Shown here piece after piece: positions 3,235 to 41,622 of a stretch of 64,000 nt of DNA. This stretch comes from Motilibacter aurantiacus. GTDB lineage: Bacteria > Actinomycetota > Actinomycetes > Motilibacterales > Motilibacteraceae. The notes beneath the pieces are model-generated. The model was not told the origin of the DNA. It did no database searches and was given only the letters and a program-made list of their open reading frames with translations. A program made the translations under genes and the position numbers. The first letter of the stretch is position 1, and each line of letters opens with the position of its first letter. The stretch lies in assembly GCF_011250645.1 (NCBI RefSeq), contig NZ_JAANNO010000002.1, positions 28,179-92,178 of the forward strand, in the 5' to 3' direction.

Positions 3235-6200
3235 ATGGGAACGAGCGTCACCGGCCGGCTGGCCGAGCTGCAGGAGCGCCTGTCCGGGGTGACGCTGCGC
3301 GACGAGCGCCGCCTCGCGCGGCGGATCTCGGGCGCGCGCCGCATCCGCGACGAGGCCGCCCGGAGCACGGTGGTCGACGAGATCACCGCCGACCTCGAGC
3401 GGGCCGAGGCGCGGCTCACCGCGCGGCGGGAGAGCCTGCCGACGATCCGCTACCCGGAGGAGCTGCCGGTCAGCCGGCGCAAGGACGACATCCTCGAGGC
3501 GGTGCGCGACGCCCAGGTGGTCGTCGTCGCCGGCGAGACCGGGTCCGGCAAGACCACGCAGCTGCCGAAGATCTGCCTCGAGCTGGGGCGGGGCGTCCGT
3601 GGCCGGATCGGCCACACCCAGCCGCGCCGGCTTGCGGCCCGGTCCGTGGCCGAGCGGGTCGCGGAGGAGCTGGGCTCCGAGCTCGGCGGCGCGGTGGGCT
3701 ACAAGGTCCGCTTCAACGACTCCGTCGGCGACGACACCTTCGTCAAGGTGATGACCGACGGCATCCTGCTCGCCGAGATCCAGGGCGACCGGTTCCTCAA
3801 CGAGTACGACACGCTCATCCTGGACGAGGCGCACGAGCGCAGCCTCAACATCGACTTCCTGCTCGGCTACCTCAAGCAGCTGCTCGCGCGCCGACCGGAC
3901 CTCAAGCTCATCATCACCTCCGCCACGATCGAGGTCGAGCGCTTCTCGCGGCACTTCGGCGACGCCCCGATCATCGAGGTGTCCGGCCGCACCTACCCGG
4001 TGGAGGTGCGCTACCGACCGCTCGTCGACGGCGCGGCCGGGGGCGACGACGAGGACGGCGACGCCGCCCAGGCCGAGCCGCGCGACCAGGTCACGGCGAT
4101 CTCGGAGGCCGTGGAGGAGCTGTGCGCGGAGGGGCCGGGCGACATCCTGGTCTTCCTCAGCGGCGAGCGGGAGATCCGCGACACCGCCGACGCGCTCGCC
4201 AAGGCCGACCTGCGCGACACCGAGATCCTTCCGCTGTACGCCCGGCTCTCCGCCGCGGAGCAGCACCGCGTCTTCTCCTCACACCCCGGCCGCCGCATCG
4301 TGCTCGCGACCAACGTCGCCGAGACCTCGCTCACCGTCCCCGGCATCAAGTACGTCGTGGACCCCGGCACGGCGCGCGTCTCGCGCTACAGCTTCCGCAC
4401 GAAGGTGCAGCGCCTGCCGATCGAGCCGGTCTCCCAGGCGTCGGCCAACCAGCGCAAGGGCCGCTGCGGCCGTGTGTCCGAAGGGATCTGCATCCGGCTC
4501 TACTCCGAAGAGGACTTCCTGTCCCGGCCGGAGTTCACCGACCCGGAGATCCTTCGCACGAGCCTTGCGTCGGTCATCCTGCAGATGACGGCGCTCGGGC
4601 TGGGTGACATCGCGGCGTTCCCGTTCGTCGACCCACCGGACCCGCGCAACATCAAGGACGGCGTGCTGCTGCTGCAGGAGCTCGGCGCCATCGACCCGGA
4701 CGAGAAGGACCCGAAGAAGCGGCTCACCGAGGTCGGCCGCCGGCTGGCCCAGCTGCCGGTCGACCCGCGCCTGGGCCGCATGGTGCTCGAGGCCGGCGAC
4801 AACGGCTGTGTGCGCGAGGTGCTCGTCATCGCCGCCGCGCTGTCGATCCAGGACCCGCGCGAGCGGCCCGTCGACAAGCAGCAGGCCGCGGCGGAGAAGC
4901 ACGCGCGGTTCACCGACCCGACCTCGGACTTCCTGGCGTACGTCAATCTCTGGAACTACCTGCAGGAGCAGCAGAAGGCGCTCTCCTCCAGCGCGTTCCG
5001 CCGGCTCTGCAAGAACGAGTTCCTCAACTACCTGCGGGTCCGCGAGTGGCAGGACGTGCACACCCAGCTGCGCCAGGTCGCCAAGGCGCTGGGCCTCTCG
5101 GCGAACACCGCGGACGCCGACCCCACGCACGTGCACACCGCGCTGCTCGCCGGCCTGCTGTCGCACATCGGCCTCAAGGACACCGACAAGCACGAGTACC
5201 TCGGTGCCCGCGGCGCCACGTTCGCCGTCTTCCCCGGGTCCGGGCTGTTCAAGAAGCCCCCGCGGTGGGTGATGTCGGCCGAGCTGGTCGAGACGACCCG
5301 GCTCTGGGCCCGCGTCAACGCGCGGATCGAGCCCGAGTGGGCGGAGAAGCTCGCCCAGCACCTGGTCAAGCGCACCTACAGCGAGCCGCACTGGGAGAAG
5401 GACCGCGCCGCCGTCCTGGCGTACGAGAAGGTCACGCTCTACGGCGTCCCGCTCGTGGCCGGGCGGAAGGTCAACTACGGGCGCATCGACCCGCCCGTGG
5501 CGCGTGACCTCTTCATCCGCAACGCGCTGGTCGAGGGCGACTGGCGCACGCACCACGCGTTCTTCGAGGAGAACCGGCGGCTGCTCGAGGACGTCGAGGA
5601 GCTGGAGAACCGCGCGCGCCGCCGCGACATCCTCGTCGACGACGAGACCCTCTTCGACTTCTACGACAAGCGCATCCCGGCCGACGTCGTGTCCGGCGCC
5701 CACTTCGACAGCTGGTGGAAGAAGGCCCGCCGCACCGAGCCGGACCTGCTCAGCTTCGAGAAGTCGATGCTGGTCAACGAGTCGGCGAGCGGCATCGCCG
5801 AGGCGGACTACCCCGACGTGTGGCGGCAGGGCGACCTCGTGCTGCCGTTGACCTACCAGTTCGAGCCCGGCACCGAGGCCGACGGCGTCACCGTCCACGT
5901 GCCGCTGCCCGTGCTCAACCGGGTCTCCCCCGCCGGGTTCGACTGGCAGATCCCCGGGCTGCGCGAGGACCTGGTCACCGCGCTGATCCGGGCGCTTCCC
6001 AAGCAGGTCCGCACCAGCTTCGTGCCGGCGCCGAACTACGCGAAGGAGGCGCTGCAGGACCTGCCCGTGCAGGACGTCCCGCTCGTGGACGCGCTCGCCC
6101 GCAGGCTGCGGCTGATGACCGGCGTGATCGTCGACCCCGGCGCCTTCGACCCGGAACGCGTCCCCGAGCACCTGAAGGTCACCTTCCGGGTCGAGGACGA

Positions 6201-34366: not shown

Positions 34367-35236
34367 TCACCACAGCCCGGGCTCCTCCGTCCGCGCCCGT
34401 GATTCCGCCGGAATCGCCCGCCGCCGGGGGGCCGGCGGGTCGAGCGGATCCCCCGACGCGGGCAGGACGCCCGCCCGGGCCAGGGCGTCCAGCACCGCGC
34501 GGTAGTCCTCGGTGACCGCCTCCCGCGGGGAGTGCACGGGGAGCGGCCGCTGCTGGGCGTACGCCTCCGGGACCCGCACGCTGCGCCGGACCGCGGGAGT
34601 GACGATGTCGCCGTAGTTCTCGGCCAGCAGGGCGAGCGCCTGCGCGTAGAGCACGCCCGCCCCGGTGGGCGGCACGTTGCACGGGATCACGCCGGCGAGG
34701 GACAGCTTGGGGTTGTAGGCGCTGCGGACGTCCTCGACCGTGCCCTCCAGCTTCGGCACGCCGGCCAGCTCCTTGACCGTCGGCTGGGCCACGGTGATTA
34801 CCGAGTCCGCTGCGACGAGCGCTGCGATCGTGAAGATGCTCAGCGCCCCCGGGCAGTCGATGATCGTGACGTCCGCGGCCGCCTGCTGCTCGGCCATCGC
34901 CTCCAGCGCCTGGCGCAGCCGCTGCTCGCCGCCGAGCGAGCGGGCCAGCTCGACCGCGTCGGCGTCGAGCCGGTCGTCCGCGGGCACGAGCCGCAGCCGC
35001 GGCACGTCGGTCTCCACGGCGGCGTCGACGAGCGTGAGCCCTCGCCGGCGCAGCAGCACGTCACCGAGGGTGGCCGCAGGCTCGTCCACCCCGAGCCAGG
35101 TGGTGGCATTGGCCTGGCCGTCGGAGTCGAGGAGCAGGACCTCGTGCCCACCCTGGGCGAGCAGGGCGGCGAGGGTCACGGCGCTGGTCGTCTTCCCGGC
35201 CGACCCCGCCTGGTTCGCGATGGCGACTGTGATCAC
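34367..35236 (-). CDS. parA: ParA-family partition ATPase
   Basis: A 289-residue Walker-type partition ATPase. The deviant Walker A is NQAGSAGKTT near the N-terminus (the usual first Lys is replaced by Gln-Ala), Walker A' is LLLDSDGQANAT and Walker B is VTIIDCPGALS. The protein lacks the long N-terminal DNA-binding domain of P1-type ParA, so it is a type Ib ParA. The ATG at 35236 overlaps the parB stop by 4 bp (ATGA). A palindrome identical to that near parB lies in its last codons (34401-34415). It is probably a second, non-canonical system, distinct from the chromosomal parABS. Confidence 0.93.
   Translation of the reverse strand: MITVAIANQAGSAGKTTSAVTLAALLAQGGHEVLLLDSDGQANATTWLGVDEPAATLGDVLLRRRGLTLVDAAVETDVPRLRLVPADDRLDADAVELARSLGGEQRLRQALEAMAEQQAAADVTIIDCPGALSIFTIAALVAADSVITVAQPTVKELAGVPKLEGTVEDVRSAYNPKLSLAGVIPCNVPPTGAGVLYAQALALLAENYGDIVTPAVRRSVRVPEAYAQQRPLPVHSPREAVTEDYRAVLDALARAGVLPASGDPLDPPAPRRRAIPAESRARTEEPGLW
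34401..34415. promoter_or_regulatory. Putative parS-like palindrome, site 1
   Basis: GATTCCGCCGGAATC, an inverted repeat with a single central base, inside the 3' end of parA. It has the same sequence as site 2; only the outermost pair (T/G) breaks the extension to 17 bp. It is unlike the canonical chromosomal parS (TGTTTCACGTGAAACA). Confidence 0.6.
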
Positions 35237-36738
35237 TGGACGTCCTCTGCAGGGGTGCCGGCGCTGATTCCGCCGGAATCACCGGCGGGCGGCGCGTCCC
35301 GCGCCTGGCCCAGCCGGCGTTGCTCCCACGGGGTGGGGACGTAGCCGACCGCGTCGACGAGCCGCTGGACGTGGGCGGCCTCCCGCCTCCCCCACTCCTC
35401 GCGCGGAGCCCGGGCCGCGAGCTCGTCCGCCGCGACGGTCATGGCCCACGCGCCCCACGCGTGCTGCCGGTCCGGGCCCGTCGCCAGGCTGTCCCGCCAG
35501 ACCTGCGGGTCCTTGGCGTAGGTGTCCCCGATCCGGCGCCCGAGCCAGCCGTGGACGAGCTTGAGCGCGCCGGCGCTGTCCACCCGGCGGTGCAGGGCCG
35601 CCTCGGCCAGCTCGCGCAGGAGCGCGCGGGCGTCCGGCGGCGCCTGCACGAGCGCGGTGCACGCCGCAGCGCGGGCCTTGGTCGCGCGCCGGCGCTCGCG
35701 CTCCTCGTCGGGGGCCGCGACGGGGCCTTCGGGGTCCCCCGGCACGGTCTCGGCGGACGTGTAGTACTCCAGGCCCTGCGGCGTCGCGACGGCGACCAGC
35801 GTCCCCGCCGCACGGGATGCCACCACCTCCTCGTCCGTGTGCAGCCGCCGGCCCTCCGCCGCCTCGGAGCCCCACACGGCCTCCGGCTCGACGAGGGGGA
35901 CGCCCTCGCGCGCCGCCTGCTCCTGCGCCTGCTCGACGGCCCGCTGCGCCTCGGCCCGGCGGGTCAGCTCCTGCACCGCCGCCGGGACCGGCAGCGACCG
36001 CTCCTTGGCCAGCCCGTACGCCGCCTCGGCCTGCTCGGCCGGCATCGCCGCGAGCGCGGCGGCGTCGGCGAGCGAGAGGGCGCCCTCGGCGAGGTCGCGC
36101 CGGGCCGACGGGGCCAGCCGGAGCAGGGCGAGCCGCTTGGACACCTGGCTCTGGGCGACCCCGAGCCGGCGGGCGATGTCGCGCTGGCTGACTCCGCGCT
36201 CGGCCAGCGCGGCGTACTGGCGGGCCTCGTCCAACGGCGTGAGGTCCTCGCGGTGCAGGTTCTCCAGCCCGGCCGCGACCAGCGCCTCGACCGGGTCGGC
36301 AAGGTCCTCGCGGACGATCGCCGGCAGCGTCGCGCGCTCGGCCAGCAGCGAGGCCGCCCGGCGCCGGTGGCCCATGACCACCACGTAGCTCCGCCCGGCC
36401 ATGGCTGCCGCGTGGTCCGGGTGGGTGGCGACCCAGGCGGCGGTCGGCACGAGGGTGACGGGCTGCTGGACCCCGCTCTCCCGGATCGACGCGGCGAGCT
36501 CGGTGACGTCCCCGACCGCGCTGCGCGGGTTGTCCGGGTTCTCGGCGATGTCGGACAGCGGCACGTCGAGGACCGCCCGGCCCGGGCCGGCCTCCTGCCC
36601 GGGGCGCGCGAGGGCCGCGACGATGCGCCCGCTGCGGGCCGGGAAATGCTCCTCGGACGTGGCCGCGGGCACCCGTCGGGTGAGCGCCGCCACGGCGGAG
36701 CCCTCGAGCCCGCGCCCTCGCCTGCTGCTGGGTGCCAC
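35233..36738 (-). CDS. parB: ParB-family partition protein
   Basis: A 501-residue ParB-family protein, longer than the ~300 of chromosomal ParB. The N-terminal ParB/Srx domain begins near residue 55 (LDVPLSDIAENPDNPR), with the nucleotide-binding GHRRRAASLLAE and ENLHREDLTPLDEARQY. The KorB-type helix-turn-helix is GVSQRDIARRLGVAQSQVSKRL. A ~250-residue C-terminal part, rich in Ala and Arg with a final Trp-rich helical segment, replaces the short dimerisation domain. GTG 36738 has AAGGAC upstream. The parA start overlaps its stop. Site 2 of the palindrome family is in its last codons and site 3 lies 120 bp upstream. Confidence 0.9.
   Translation of the reverse strand: MAPSSRRGRGLEGSAVAALTRRVPAATSEEHFPARSGRIVAALARPGQEAGPGRAVLDVPLSDIAENPDNPRSAVGDVTELAASIRESGVQQPVTLVPTAAWVATHPDHAAAMAGRSYVVVMGHRRRAASLLAERATLPAIVREDLADPVEALVAAGLENLHREDLTPLDEARQYAALAERGVSQRDIARRLGVAQSQVSKRLALLRLAPSARRDLAEGALSLADAAALAAMPAEQAEAAYGLAKERSLPVPAAVQELTRRAEAQRAVEQAQEQAAREGVPLVEPEAVWGSEAAEGRRLHTDEEVVASRAAGTLVAVATPQGLEYYTSAETVPGDPEGPVAAPDEERERRRATKARAAACTALVQAPPDARALLRELAEAALHRRVDSAGALKLVHGWLGRRIGDTYAKDPQVWRDSLATGPDRQHAWGAWAMTVAADELAARAPREEWGRREAAHVQRLVDAVGYVPTPWEQRRLGQARDAPPAGDSGGISAGTPAEDVQ
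35265..35281. promoter_or_regulatory. Putative parS-like palindrome, site 2
   Basis: TGATTCCGCCGGAATCA, a perfect 17-bp palindrome around a central C, in the last codons of parB and about 29 bp before the parA start. ParB binding here could both mark the DNA and modulate parA expression. Confidence 0.65.
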
Positions 36739-36856
36739 AGAAGTCCTTTCGCCGGTCGATCGGCTCGCCGCGCCGGACGGGCGGGCGAGTCGGACGGGCA
36801 CTGTCTACGCCAGCGGGTGGGGGCCCGTTCAAGGCGGCGCGCCGCTGCTGCTCGAG

Positions 36857-36873
36857 TGATTCCGGCGGAATCA
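36857..36873. promoter_or_regulatory. Putative parS-like palindrome, site 3
   Basis: TGATTCCGGCGGAATCA, the same palindrome with central G (the opposite-strand reading of site 2), in the intergenic gap 119 bp upstream of the parB start. Its position suits a ParB loading site that also controls parB transcription. Confidence 0.65.
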
Positions 36874-36992
36874 CCCGCGGGCGCCCCTCCTGCCACAGCA
36901 GCACCAGCGGTACCTCCACTCCGCCTCAGGTACCGCAGCCCGGCACCTGCGACCGAGGCGGCGCAAGGTCGGCGATCCCTAACGTCGCGGCC

Positions 36993-37619
36993 ATGACAAC
37001 GCTCATCGCCGACCCCGACGTGGTCGCGATCCCGGTCGAGGACAACGGCGACCCGCTCGTCGACCTCGCCACCTGCGGCATCGCCTGCGCCGAGCCGGGC
37101 AGCGACCGGCGCCACGTGCGCTCCACGCTCGCCGACCGGCTGTTGGCCGCCGACGCGGCGCTCCCCCCGGGGGTGCGCCTGCTCGTCGTCGAGGGGCTGC
37201 GCACCGCCCGCGCCCAGGCCGCGGTGCTGACCGGCTACACCCGCGAGCTGCGCACCACGTTCCCCTGGCTCGGGTCGAAGGAGCTGCGGCGGCTCGCGAC
37301 CCGCTACGTCGCGCCGCTCGAGGTCGCGCCCCACGTGGCGGGGGCCGCGGTCGACGTCACGCTCGCCGACGCGTTCGGCCGGGAGCTGTGGATGGGGACC
37401 GAGCTGGACGCCACCCCGGAGGAGAGCGGAGGCCGCTGCGCGTTCGACGCCGACGTCGACCCGGAGGCGCGCCGCAACCGCATTCTGCTCGCGCGGGCCC
37501 TCGGCGACGTCGGGCTGGTGAACTATCCGACCGAGTGGTGGCACTGGAGCTTCGGCGACCGCTACTGGGCCTTCGTCAGCGGGGCGGACCGCGCGATCTA
37601 CGGCCCGGTCGAGCGATGA
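36993..37619 (+). CDS. vanX: VanX-type D-Ala-D-Ala dipeptidase (M15D)
   Basis: A 208-residue zinc dipeptidase predicted to hydrolyse D-alanyl-D-alanine. Key residues line up with Enterococcus VanX almost exactly: Arg70 (EGLRTARA), zinc ligands His114 and Asp121 in PHVAGAAVD, and Glu181 and His184 in EWWH (VanX: Arg71, His116, Asp123, Glu181, His184). No signal peptide is present, so it acts in the cytoplasm. ATG 36993 has only a weak ribosome site. Its stop overlaps the alr start (ATGA), placing it first in a coupled run vanX-alr-ddl-kinase-regulator. It could recycle wall dipeptides or alter the precursor pool. Confidence 0.88.
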   Translation: MTTLIADPDVVAIPVEDNGDPLVDLATCGIACAEPGSDRRHVRSTLADRLLAADAALPPGVRLLVVEGLRTARAQAAVLTGYTRELRTTFPWLGSKELRRLATRYVAPLEVAPHVAGAAVDVTLADAFGRELWMGTELDATPEESGGRCAFDADVDPEARRNRILLARALGDVGLVNYPTEWWHWSFGDRYWAFVSGADRAIYGPVER

Positions 37620-38740
37620 GCCGCCCCACCCTCACGGTCGATCTCTCGGCCGTCGCGGCCAACACCCGCCTGCTGGCCTCCGCGGCGCGCGGCGCCCTGA
37701 TGGCCGTCGTCAAGGCCGACGGCTTCGGGCACGGGGACGCGGGCGTGGCCCGCACGGCGCTGGCCAGCGGTGCGACGGCGCTCGGGGTGACCTCGGTCGA
37801 GGAGGCGCTGGCGCTGCGCCGGGACGGGGTGGAGGCGCCCGTGCTCAGCTGGCTCAACCCGGTCGACGCGCCCTTCGACGAGGCGGTGCGGGCGGGGGTG
37901 GAGCTCGCCGTGCCCTCGCCGGCCCACCTGCAGGCGATCGCCGCTGCGGCCCGCCGCACCGGGCGGCCCGCCCGGCTGCACCTGCACGTCGACATCGGGA
38001 TGGCCCGGGACGGCGCCTCCCCGCTGGAGTGGGACGCGCTGTGCGCCGCGGCCCGCAGCGCCGAGCTCGCCGGGGACGTACGCGTCGTCGGCGTCATGGG
38101 CCACCTCGGGTGGGCGGACCAGCCGTGCGACCCGCTCAACCGGCACGGCCGCGAGCGCTTCCTCGAAGCCGTGGCGGCGGCGCGGGCCGCCGGCCTGCGC
38201 CCGGGCACGCGTCACCTTGCCGCGACCGCGGCCACGTTGACCGCGCCCGACACCCACTTCGAGCTCTGCCGCGTGGGCGCGGGGCTCGCCGGCATCGACC
38301 CTTCCGGGACGACCCGGCTGCACCCTGCCCTGACCCTCACGGCGCCGGTCGTCGCGGTGCGCGAGGTGCCCGCCGGCACGCACGTGGGCTACGGCCGCAC
38401 GTACGCCACGTCGCGGCGGGCTTGGCTGGCCCTGCTCCCGGTGGGGTACGCCGACGGCATCCCGCGCGCGGCCTCCGGATCGGCGTGGGTGCAGCTGCGC
38501 GGGCGCCGGCGCCGGGTCGTGGGCGCCGTGTCCATGGACTGCGTGGTCGTCGAGGCCGGGGAGGACCCGGTGGCCCTCGGGGAGACCGCGACGGTGTTCG
38601 GCCCGGGCGCCTCCGGCGAGCCCACCACCGCTGACTGGGCCCGCTGGGCGGGGACGCTCGAGCACGAGATCGTGACCGGGATCGGCCCGCGCGTGGCACG
38701 CCGGACGCTGACGGCTCCGCAGCTGGCGGTGAGCGCGTGA
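37616..38740 (+). CDS. alr: Alanine racemase
   Basis: A 374-residue PLP enzyme interconverting L- and D-alanine. The N-terminal TIM barrel carries the PLP-lysine in VVKADGFGHG (Lys33), one residue unlike the usual VKADAYGHG. The second catalytic residue, Tyr of THVGYGRTYATS, and the ending region PVGYADGIPR and VGAVSMDCVVVE are canonical. Start ATG 37616 overlaps the dipeptidase stop. The stop overlaps the ligase GTG (GTGA). It could also racemise serine; the active-site differences that mark VanT-type serine racemases cannot be judged by eye. Confidence 0.93.
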   Translation: MSRPTLTVDLSAVAANTRLLASAARGALMAVVKADGFGHGDAGVARTALASGATALGVTSVEEALALRRDGVEAPVLSWLNPVDAPFDEAVRAGVELAVPSPAHLQAIAAAARRTGRPARLHLHVDIGMARDGASPLEWDALCAAARSAELAGDVRVVGVMGHLGWADQPCDPLNRHGRERFLEAVAAARAAGLRPGTRHLAATAATLTAPDTHFELCRVGAGLAGIDPSGTTRLHPALTLTAPVVAVREVPAGTHVGYGRTYATSRRAWLALLPVGYADGIPRAASGSAWVQLRGRRRRVVGAVSMDCVVVEAGEDPVALGETATVFGPGASGEPTTADWARWAGTLEHEIVTGIGPRVARRTLTAPQLAVSA

Positions 38741-39690
38741 GCGCCCGGCGGCGCGTCGCCGTGATCGGCGGCGGGCGCAACTGCGAGCACGAGGTCGGCC
38801 TCGCCACCGCCGCCTCGGTGCGGCGGGCGCTGGACCCGCGGCGCTACGACGTCGTGCCCCTGACGATCGGGCGGGACGGCTCGTGGTCCTCCGACGGCTC
38901 CCCGCTCGCCTTCGCCGACGCCGTCGCGGTGCTCGCGGCCTGTGACGTGGCCTTCCCGGCGGTGCACGGCCCGCACGGCGAGGACGGCACGCTCGCGGCG
39001 CTCTGCGAGCTGGCCGGCGTCCCCTACGTCGGCGCCGGCGTCCGCGGCGGCGCGCTGGCCATGGACAAGTGGGCCACCAAGCTGGTGGCGGCGGCGCTGG
39101 GCATCCGCGTCGCGCCGGGGATGGTCGTGGCCTCCGTCGACGAGCTCGTCCCCGTCCGGCTGCCCGCGGTCGTGAAGCCGGTGGCGGCCGGCTCCAGCCA
39201 CGGGGTGACGCTCGTCCGCTCGGCCGCGCAGCTCGTGCCGGCGGCCCGCGCCGCGCTGGAGCTGGACACCCGGGTGCTCGTGGAGGAGCTGGTCGTCGGG
39301 CGCGAGGTGGACGTGGCGGTCCTCGAGCGCGCCGACGGGACGCGCGTGGCCGGCCCGCCGCTGGAGGTCGTCGTGCCGTCCGGGCGGCTGTTCGACACCG
39401 AGGCCAAGTACGACGGGTCTGCCGACTTCCGGCTGCCGGCCGTGGTCTCGGACGTCGAGGGCAAGGAGCTCGAGGAGGCCGCGCTCGCGATGTTCGACGC
39501 GCTCGGCTGCTCGGGCGTGGCCCGGGTCGACTTCTTCCTCACGAGGAGCGGCCCCGTGCTCAACGAGGTCAACACCATGCCCGGGCTCACCGAGCAGTCG
39601 CAGGTGCCGAAGATGTTCGCGGCGGCCGGCCTGGCGTACCCCCGGCTGCTGGACGAGCTGGTCACGGGGGCGCTGGCCCGCGTTGGGTGA
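38737..39690 (+). CDS. ddl: D-alanine-D-alanine ligase
   Basis: A 317-residue ATP-grasp ligase making the D-Ala-D-Ala dipeptide of peptidoglycan. N-terminal GGRNCEHEVGLATA, then HGPHGEDGTLAAL (ATP/substrate loop), PVVKPVAAGSSHGV and the C-terminal ELNEVNTMPGLTEQS-like block (LNEVNTMPGLTEQ) are typical. The omega loop reads FDTEAKYDGSADF and keeps Lys-Tyr, the pair of Ddl enzymes that make D-Ala-D-Ala; VanA/VanB lactate ligases carry different residues here. GTG 38737 overlaps the alr stop. A second, housekeeping ddl elsewhere is possible. Substrate choice (D-Ala or D-Ser) is inferred. Confidence 0.9.
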   Translation: MSARRRVAVIGGGRNCEHEVGLATAASVRRALDPRRYDVVPLTIGRDGSWSSDGSPLAFADAVAVLAACDVAFPAVHGPHGEDGTLAALCELAGVPYVGAGVRGGALAMDKWATKLVAAALGIRVAPGMVVASVDELVPVRLPAVVKPVAAGSSHGVTLVRSAAQLVPAARAALELDTRVLVEELVVGREVDVAVLERADGTRVAGPPLEVVVPSGRLFDTEAKYDGSADFRLPAVVSDVEGKELEEAALAMFDALGCSGVARVDFFLTRSGPVLNEVNTMPGLTEQSQVPKMFAAAGLAYPRLLDELVTGALARVG

Positions 39691-39745
39691 CGTGATTGCA
39701 TGGGCGCGTCCTCTTCTCCGCACCGGATCGGCACGCGCACAGTCC

Positions 39746-40963
39746 ATGGCCCACTCGCTCTCCTGGCCGCCCGACGAGGCGGGGCGGCGCCTGCTCCTCG
39801 GCGGCGCGATCGGCCTGGCCGTCGCGGCGTTCGGGCTGTGGGAGACCGGCCGCGGCATCTCCGCGAACAACCCCAGCCCCCTCGCCGCGGTCGCGATGGG
39901 GGTGGCGGCGGGGACGTACCGGGTCAAGCCCGCGCTCGCCCTGGCGCTGGTGTGGGCGGCCGCCGTGCTGCAGGTGCTGCTCGGCCGTGACGTCGCGTTC
40001 GTGCAACTGGCCACCCTGCTCGTGGCGTACGGGACGGCCCGCTACGGGCGCCCGGTCACGGTGTGGGCCAGCGGCGTCTCGATCCCGATTGGGGCGGTCC
40101 TCGCCCTGGCGTACATCGCGACCACCGGCACCGACCTGCCGCGCCGGCTCGGACTGTACCGCTTCGGCGGGGACCTTTCGGCTCCTGTCGTGGCGAACGG
40201 GCTCGTGCTGGTGCTCGCCGCGCTGGCCGGCCCCTGGCTGGTGGGGCTGCTGCTCCGGGTCCGCGACGCGTACCGGCGCTCCGTGGCCCAGCGGCGCGCC
40301 GCCGAGGCGGAGGCCGAGCGGCACCAGGAGATCGCGGGGCTGGAGGCGGCCCAGGCCCGGCTGGCCCGCGACGTGCACGACGTGGTCGGCCACTCGTTGA
40401 CCGTCATCCTGGCGCAGGCGGACTCGGCGCAGTTCTACGAGGACGCCGACATCGCGAAGATCCGCTCCGCGATGGAGCAGATCGCCGCGACGGCACGCTC
40501 CTCGCTGGGGGACGTGCGCCAGGTGCTGGCGTCCACGTCACCGGACGCCGCTCCCCCGCGTCCACCGGGTGGGCTGGACGAGCTGATCGAGGGCGTGCGC
40601 GGCGCCGGCCACGACCTGCGGCTGCGGGTCGAGGGCCTGCCGCAGCCGATGCCTCCGGAGCTGGACGTGGTGGCGTACCGCGTGCTGCAGGAGATGCTCA
40701 CGAACGCCATCCGGCACGGGCGGCGCGACCTGCCGATCTTCGTGGACCGGACGTGGGGCGCCGACGAGCTGCGCCTCGAAGTGCGCAACGCCGTTCAGGA
40801 AATGGAGTACACCTCCGGGGAAGGGCTCGGGCTGCCCGGCATGGCACGGCGGCTCGAGGCCGTGGGCGGCCGGCTGCGTACCCGCCGGGAGGACGTGCCG
40901 GAAGGCACGGTGCAGTTCACGGTGACGGCCGACGTGCCGGTGCGGCCCAAGGGGGGACGATGA
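39746..40963 (+). CDS. DesK-type sensor histidine kinase
   Basis: A 405-residue kinase with about five N-terminal helices (residues ~15-150), then a HisKA_3 dimerisation domain with the phospho-acceptor in RDVHDVVGHS (His211), and a HATPase_c domain with N-box NAIRHGRR and G-box GEGLGLPGMARR. There is no extracellular domain, so it may sense the membrane itself or a bound signal. The ATG at 39746 was preferred over GTG 39692: the 18 codons between are AT-rich at third positions, unlike the rest of the gene. The response regulator starts in a 4-bp overlap. Likely partner of the D-Ala genes upstream. Confidence 0.88.
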   Translation: MAHSLSWPPDEAGRRLLLGGAIGLAVAAFGLWETGRGISANNPSPLAAVAMGVAAGTYRVKPALALALVWAAAVLQVLLGRDVAFVQLATLLVAYGTARYGRPVTVWASGVSIPIGAVLALAYIATTGTDLPRRLGLYRFGGDLSAPVVANGLVLVLAALAGPWLVGLLLRVRDAYRRSVAQRRAAEAEAERHQEIAGLEAAQARLARDVHDVVGHSLTVILAQADSAQFYEDADIAKIRSAMEQIAATARSSLGDVRQVLASTSPDAAPPRPPGGLDELIEGVRGAGHDLRLRVEGLPQPMPPELDVVAYRVLQEMLTNAIRHGRRDLPIFVDRTWGADELRLEVRNAVQEMEYTSGEGLGLPGMARRLEAVGGRLRTRREDVPEGTVQFTVTADVPVRPKGGR

Positions 40964-41622
40964 GCGAGCCGATCCGCGTGCTGCTGGTCGACGACCAGGA
41001 GCTCTTCCGGTCGGGGGTGGCGGTGAACCTCGACGCGCAGCCCGACATGCAGGTCGTCGGGCAGGCGTCCAACGGCCGGGACGCCGTCCACCTGGTCGCC
41101 ACCACCCAGCCGGACGTCGTGCTCATGGACATCCGCATGCCGGAGATGGACGGCGTGGAGGCGACGCGGCTGATCTTCGCGCCGGAGGCCGCCGCCCGCC
41201 GCTCCCGGCCGGTCCGGGTCATCGTCCTGACGACGTTCAACCTGGACGACCGGGCCGCGACGGCGATCCGCTACGGCGCGAGCGGCTTCCTGCTCAAGGA
41301 CGCGACGCCGGACTTCCTGCGGGCCGCGATCCGGACCGTGCACTCGGGGAGCGCCGTCCTCGCGCCGGACGACCTGCACACGCTGCTCGAAGGAGGGTTC
41401 CGGCACTCGCAGCCGCTGCCCTCGGCCTACGGCTCCCTGACCGACAAGGAGCGCGAGATCCTCGACGCGGTGGCGCGCGGCCTGAGCAACGCCGAGGTCG
41501 CCGCCGAGACCTTCCTCAGCGAGTCGACGGTGAAGACGCACGTGGGCAGCATCCTGCGCAAGCTCGACCTGCGCGACCGGGTGCAGATCGTCGTCTTCGC
41601 CCACGAGCACGGGCTGCGCTGA
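40960..41622 (+). CDS. NarL/FixJ-family response regulator
   Basis: A 220-residue regulator. The receiver domain has the acidic pair DDQE and the phospho-acceptor Asp57 in LMDIRMPEMDG, with Lys in FLLKDATP. The C-terminal LuxR-type helix-turn-helix is LTDKEREILDAVARGLSNAEVAAETFLSESTVKTHV. The start codon overlaps the kinase stop (ATGA), making an obvious cognate pair. It is the last gene of the vanX-alr-ddl run, so it may control that operon; VanR-type regulators of resistance operons are OmpR-like, so this is a different architecture. Confidence 0.95.
   Translation: MSEPIRVLLVDDQELFRSGVAVNLDAQPDMQVVGQASNGRDAVHLVATTQPDVVLMDIRMPEMDGVEATRLIFAPEAAARRSRPVRVIVLTTFNLDDRAATAIRYGASGFLLKDATPDFLRAAIRTVHSGSAVLAPDDLHTLLEGGFRHSQPLPSAYGSLTDKEREILDAVARGLSNAEVAAETFLSESTVKTHVGSILRKLDLRDRVQIVVFAHEHGLR

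Follow-up and report, generated by a model that had tools for sequence, protein, structure and literature searches.

The van operons of the D-Ala-D-Ser type (VanC, VanE, VanG, VanL and VanN) join a ligase, a peptidase that removes D-Ala-D-Ala, a racemase and a two-component system (TCS) with an OmpR-type regulator, VanR. In D-Ala-D-Ser resistance the serine racemase, VanT, joins an AT3 domain and a racemase domain in one protein (PMC12423673). The vanHAX operons of the D-Ala-D-Lac type have the dehydrogenase VanH and a VanA ligase with His in its omega-loop. Wall-stress systems of the LiaRS and VraSR kind pair a HisKA_3 membrane kinase lacking a large outer domain with a NarL-type regulator. 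Here we describe an operon of Motilibacter aurantiacus, vanX-alr-ddl followed by genes for a sensor kinase and a NarL-type response regulator, found in a 64,000-nucleotide stretch (the window) of contig NZ_JAANNO010000002.1, positions 28,179 to 92,178. The main new result is a conserved predicted operator in an apparently leaderless vanX promoter.

A 2021 survey of actinobacterial van-like genes, which searched around VanRS-like pairs, presents in its accessible text the pdx operon and rare vanYRS loci with a racemase and Ddl, and suggests D-Ala-D-Ser; a NarL-type vanX-alr-ddl set is not described in that text (PMC8698665). Our literature search found no paper on a vanX-alr-ddl cluster with a NarL-type system; subscription papers lay mostly outside that search, and novelty is unproven.

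With the D-Ala-D-Ser van operons the locus shares its kinds of enzyme and the presence of a TCS, an AT3 membrane part that stands beside the enzymes in many homologous loci, and a ligase Phe at the position of VanG F252. It differs from them in having VanX (found also in D-Lac types) instead of VanXY, a soluble racemase separate from AT3, vanX as first gene, NarL-type instead of OmpR-type control, and a ligase of a separate clade with Gln for Arg324. The racemase, an omega-loop Lys-Tyr and again the ligase clade distinguish it from vanHAX. The pdx operon of Micromonosporales, as the accessible part of the survey presents it, likewise has a Ddl-like ligase, a VanX-like dipeptidase, a PLP enzyme and a TCS, and D-Ala-D-Ser is suggested there too, but its PLP enzyme is a PALP serine/threonine dehydratase rather than an Alr-fold racemase and its regulation is VanRS-like (PMC8698665). 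The pdx ligase belongs to another clade, with Met where the operon ligases have Gln. The same portion of the survey reports vanYRS with alr and ddl in Allonocardiopsis, Murinocardiopsis and some Geodermatophilales, where a racemase and Ddl stand beside VanY and a TCS much as in a sister genus of Motilibacter (genome G001, below); these loci, likened here by description and not by sequence, are of the VanRS (OmpR) type and have no VanX (PMC8698665). In their domain types the kinase and regulator resemble LiaRS/VraSR systems, whereas here the TCS is fixed to a predicted precursor-replacement operon and the kinase matches Strep LiaS only weakly, its 19 bits falling well short of the family cut-off. 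The operon is not a member of any named van type.

A preliminary description of the locus had likened its enzymes to the D-Ala-D-Ser van trio and had remarked on the unusual NarL-type control. The likeness is strengthened by residues of the ligase and racemase, by the AT3 gene in many loci and by a regulon that includes VanY; the control is confirmed by a HisKA_3 kinase and a Response_reg/GerE regulator.

Predicted operator and regulon

The promoter and operator of the operon lie directly upstream of its first gene, at 36919-36985 (Table 1). An operator consensus, TCCGGCACCTCAGGTGGAG, is common to 40 TCS-bearing loci upstream of vanX. Sites scoring above 12 bits are present in 35 of the 40, against 0.3% of shuffled upstream sequences, and in 32 of the 40 promoters the top-scoring site, by leave-one-out, begins between -56 and -53 relative to the ATG. 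Eight VanX-Alr-Ddl loci that have no TCS score at most 10.5 and lack the operator. In many homologous loci an element resembling CCTAGCGT lies 8-9 bp upstream of the ATG, which suggests that the vanX transcript is leaderless.

Other upstream repeats were seen in some homologous loci. In Lentzea and Actinokineospora, both TCS-less (L062-L070), the repeat upstream of vanX is GGCCGATnGG ... CGGCCGTTCGG, which a different regulator probably recognises. Terracoccus and Intrasporangium (L096, L137) have a different palindrome, of the TCCTCCCGCGGGAGGA type, before the kinase gene and before alr; these promoters look leaderless, and the difference in palindrome matches the diverged regulator of the two genera.

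A relaxed operator core has four exact matches in the M. aurantiacus genome: the two vanX sites, one coding match, and one before a gene for a secreted protein on contig C18, which also has a partner site with one mismatch starting at -54 from the ATG. The secreted protein is a VanY carboxypeptidase (PF02557), whose best NCBIfam neighbour is VanY-N of the Nonomuraea type, below cut-off. A matrix built without the genus of the window, applied to 168 kb of the genome chosen so as to take in the top pattern hits, ranks the vanX and vanY sites above all others. None of the five next-best sites lies in a promoter of the vanX kind, and four of them are inside coding frames. In the sister species an operator site precedes VanY at the same -95 position. 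The sister genus G001 has no VanX; its cluster is Alr-Ddl-kinase-regulator, alr is preceded by an operator and a -10 element, and a convergent VanY, likewise with an operator of its own, occupies the place of the missing VanX. Lone genome-wide pattern matches were set aside as chance (58, compared with 87 in a reversed control), and only matches placed in promoters were kept.

A gene for a DUF6518 (domain of unknown function) membrane protein (L220, about 4059-4880) in the M. aurantiacus genome has two operator sites 22 bp apart, and the DUF6518 gene of G001 (L263) has a 20.9-bit site at -54; the protein is a probable third regulon member. Taken together, these comparisons make a shared operator and regulon very probable. 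In the Jiangella and Nocardioides genomes no equally good second promoter site was found ahead of vanY.

Two further observations concern these sites and VanY. Nocardioides flavescens (L239) has an extra exact operator site, with no obvious gene suitably spaced from it. A further VanY-like copy, shorter than the first (L260 4488-4772; G000:C8:48487), has no upstream operator and is probably a truncated paralogue.

Enzymes and two-component system

VanG F252 and R324, which we take to be specificity positions (their residue letters match 4fu0 numbering), correspond to F219 and Q289 of the operon ligase. Phe and Gln are found there in all 55 operon-type ligases, including four from Kribbella/Intrasporangiaceae, compared with Tyr and either Ala, Met or Leu in canonical housekeeping Ddl and with Phe and Arg in VanA, VanB and VanG. 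This pair points to a D-Ala-D-Ser product, which is suggestive but not proof. The omega-loop Lys-Tyr is kept in all operon ligases, unlike VanA and VanB, and because a racemase also takes the place of the dehydrogenase, a D-Lac product is disfavoured. In a tree that included VanG as its sole D-Ser ligase, the 51 main operon ligases, from loci with and without a TCS, group into a single clade (SH-aLRT 91, under the 95 mark) apart from the housekeeping, VanA/B/G, pdx and Kribbella-type ligases, and VanG groups with VanA and VanB. Scores against the two D_ala_D_ser models are far below cut-off (200 against 520 and 225 against 495 bits). An AF2 model (pLDDT 93) has the Ddl/VanG fold, and VanG 4fu0 aligns to it at Z 38.2 over 302 residues; since 4fu0 is tied with many Ddl, the fold cannot separate VanG from Ddl. 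Judged by its sequence, the operon ligase is a specialised paralogue.

The same description applies to the racemase, again by sequence. It is above the cut-off of TIGR00492 (alr) and reaches 182 bits against a cut-off of 460 for vanT-G-Cterm. Operon racemases show 16 near-fixed differences from housekeeping Alr, and in a tree they separate as a clade from 13 such Alr with support 99.8. The differences include Tyr to Phe adjoining the catalytic Lys motif, Asn-Ser to Ala-Thr within an H-L-A-A-T motif, Ser to Gly before the catalytic Tyr, and Tyr to His near the C-terminus; the changed positions line the active site of Alr. Residues were compared with housekeeping Alr, not VanT, since the plasmid collection yielded no VanT reference. 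The VanT marker Tyr354/Asn was dropped, actinobacterial Alr being without that Tyr in any case (alignment with 1vfh). An AT3 acyltransferase gene (PF01757) lies directly 3′ of the ligase gene in about 17 distinct loci.

For the dipeptidase, the preliminary description had listed Arg70, His114, Asp121, Glu181 and His184; each is at exactly that VanX position and invariant in 14 homologues, and the zinc ligands and catalytic Glu and Arg are all present. A PDB search with the VanX-family profile matched only the solved VanX, 1r44. The score for the dipept_VanX equivalog (30.8) misses the cut-off of 320, and the product is therefore a divergent VanX member. Removal of D-Ala-D-Ala, as in the D-Ser van operons, is predicted from this VanX together with the operator-linked VanY.

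The kinase has about five transmembrane-like peaks and an H211 box, HDVVGHS, invariant in 20 loci. Over 20 loci the phospho-acceptor D57 of the regulator is invariant, as are 124 of its 220 residues; its best model is NarL, and control is not of the OmpR-type VanRS kind.

Gene order, accessory status and spread

All five open reading frames of the operon are intact, and Pfam families bear out each gene identity given in the preliminary description. Its layout of five genes with 4-bp overlaps (vanX/alr, alr/ddl, kinase/regulator) and a 55-bp gap also stands; the gap between ddl and kinase presumes the kinase ATG at 39746 and shrinks to 1 bp with an alternative in-frame GTG at 39692. The word 'fused' in its title is right for neighbouring genes but not for a fused protein.

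Table 1. Features of the operon and its promoter, in window coordinates
Feature	Position	Strand	Evidence
Operator site 1, CTGCGGTACCTGAGGCGGAG on minus strand	36919..36938	-	24.0 bits, top score in the 168 kb; matched exactly by the genome-wide pattern
Operator site 2, GCCCGGCACCTGCGACCGAG, start -55 from vanX ATG	36938..36957	+	15.2 bits; placed like the top site of 32 of 40 homologous promoters (-56 to -53)
-10-like element CCTAACGT, probably leaderless promoter	36978..36985	+	CCTAGCGT/CCTAACGT recurs in homologous loci
vanX-type D-Ala-D-Ala dipeptidase, 208 aa	36993..37619	+	Peptidase_M15; profile match to 1r44; catalytic residues
Specialised alanine-racemase-fold racemase, 374 aa, putative D-Ser (VanT-catalytic-like) racemase	37616..38740	+	Ala_racemase_N/C; TIGR00492
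Specialised Ddl-fold ligase, 317 aa, putative D-Ala:D-Ser ligase, GTG start	38737..39690	+	Dala_Dala_lig_N/C
Membrane sensor kinase, HisKA_3/DesK type, 405 aa	39746..40963	+	HisKA_3 + HATPase_c
NarL/LuxR-type response regulator, 220 aa	40960..41622	+	Response_reg + GerE

The M. aurantiacus genome (98.8% complete) has a second, canonical ddl at C2:276112 and a second, canonical alr at C1:415426, with only one Peptidase_M15 gene; at least two Ddl and at least two Alr genes are present in all 12 further operon genomes tested. The housekeeping role that the preliminary description would have accepted for sole copies of ddl and alr with a ligase making D-Ala-D-Ala only can thus be set aside, and the operon is accessory, because separate canonical genes are present.

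In the small taxonomic family of the organism, VanX is present only in the genus of the window (two of five genomes), and a VanX relative occurs in 61 of 394 genomes of the class; none was found in the viral contigs searched. The order VanX-Alr-Ddl-kinase-regulator holds in 19 of the 19 operon-type loci first taken, among which the regulator is the best-conserved component (72-75% identity beyond the genus). The five-gene set occurs in about 25 named genomes and its order recurs in about 10 actinobacterial families; with identical order in so many loci, the set is not due to chance. It was found in Nocardioides, Jiangella, Frankia, Salinibacterium, Oerskovia, Tessaracoccus, Actinopolymorpha, Hamadaea, Virgisporangium, Kineosporia, Frondihabitans and one Streptomyces. 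The 4-bp Alr/Ddl overlap is nearly constant across homologous loci, and the flanks are unrelated between families. Lentzea, Actinokineospora and Actinopolyspora have VanX-Alr-Ddl without a TCS, Kribbella has the order Alr-Ddl-VanX, and Terracoccus and Intrasporangium have kinase-regulator-Alr-Ddl-VanX.

Individual loci show further variants. In Virgisporangium (L125 9715-12776) the racemase and ligase genes are separated by inserted genes for the ATPase and permease of an ABC transporter. On a Streptomyces linear plasmid (L195 6828-9029) a single long 'alr' protein has a Ddl-type ligase as its C-terminal half (45% identity), an apparent racemase-ligase fusion. In the window itself, ParA-like and ParB-like genes adjoin the operon on the minus strand (34367-36801), and the palindrome GATTCCGGCGGAATC has three exact copies (34401-34415, 35266-35280 and 36858-36872; 0.05 expected), likely a parS-type site set. 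A palindrome of this type is also found upstream of vanX in the sister species.

Proposed function and alternatives

We read the locus, with a probability of roughly 0.6, as an inducible van-type peptidoglycan-precursor replacement regulon run by a NarL-type system. The membrane kinase would sense wall damage or a wall-binding compound and phosphorylate the regulator, which on phosphorylation would bind the operator at about -74/-55 and activate transcription of the leaderless operon, kinase and regulator genes included. VanX would then clear cytoplasmic D-Ala-D-Ala, co-induced VanY, encoded elsewhere, would cut D-Ala off finished pentapeptides, and the special racemase and ligase would make a replacement D-Ala-D-Xaa, most likely D-Ala-D-Ser. 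D-Ser as the new terminal residue has somewhat better than even chances.

Several points weigh against this reading, or against D-Ser in particular. The operon ligase falls outside the VanG clade and, by that tree with VanG as its D-Ser ligase and by the D_ala_D_ser model scores, does not belong to the VanC/E/G/L/N lineage; it has Gln where VanG and VanC have Arg, and VanG D243 is not conserved, being Leu. The AT3 gene had no match in the M. aurantiacus genome, in a search that had no positive control. Glycine or another D-residue would fit as product equally well. Two Jiangella loci with the operon (L153, L154) also have a VanA-type ligase beside a VanH-like dehydrogenase, L153 with a VanX-type gene too; two precursor-replacement systems may stand side by side there, and the operon may therefore have another purpose in that genus.

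We consider unlikely an alternative in which the design is the same and either the replacement residue is not D-Ser (for example glycine or a different D-amino acid) or the system responds to wall remodelling, developmental or environmental, and not to a glycopeptide. Consistent with it are the Gln present in every operon-type ligase, a clade distinct from every Van ligase compared, the additional vanHAX of Jiangella, and the fact that glycopeptide biosynthesis genes were not noticed near the operon, though no search was aimed at them. Against a residue other than D-Ser, an AT3 gene next to those for ligase and racemase reproduces the make-up of VanT in D-Ser systems, and the racemase-ligase-VanX trio fits D-Ser operons best.

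Supply or salvage of D-alanine, with VanX and VanY freeing D-Ala from D-Ala-D-Ala or from old stems, the racemase interconverting it and the ligase rebuilding D-Ala-D-Ala under wall stress, seems to us quite improbable. It would agree with the top score of the racemase (the alr equivalog), with the generic Ddl models that score highest for the ligase and with the plain Ddl fold of the latter. However, a dipeptidase and a ligase made from an overlapping transcript would run a futile cycle if both acted on D-Ala-D-Ala; ordinary D-Ala-D-Ala synthesis is disfavoured because VanX off the same transcript would destroy the product. The recycling role offered in the preliminary description, as an alternative to a wall-precursor response, is for this reason the weaker of its two readings. 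Housekeeping ddl and alr are moreover already there, and the active-site changes are fixed in the operon copies only. Titration of D-cycloserine by extra alr and ddl is very improbable: the operon holds both targets of the drug, and a cassette-borne Ddl variant alone confers resistance according to the accessible part of one report (PMC7691350), yet co-expressed VanX and co-regulated VanY would take away the same product as D-cycloserine does, and substrate-site changes are unexpected for simple titration.

Beyond the precursor-replacement regulon itself, we put forward only tentatively that it is a widespread actinobacterial system of an origin independent of the known van ligase and VanRS lineages, joining a NarL-type sensor, VanY and the DUF6518 protein, with a wall terminus unrecorded for van systems that would be set by the Phe/Gln pocket. 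If the replacement reading holds, the van logic of removing D-Ala-D-Ala and making another dipeptide has been assembled at least twice, here from another ligase lineage and another kind of regulator. The concrete operator sequence opens the regulon and its inducer to a direct reporter test, and DUF6518 gains a testable prediction. Soil actinobacteria would then be a reservoir of possible D-Ala-D-Ser-type enzymes beyond the vanHAX and VanRS searches used so far.

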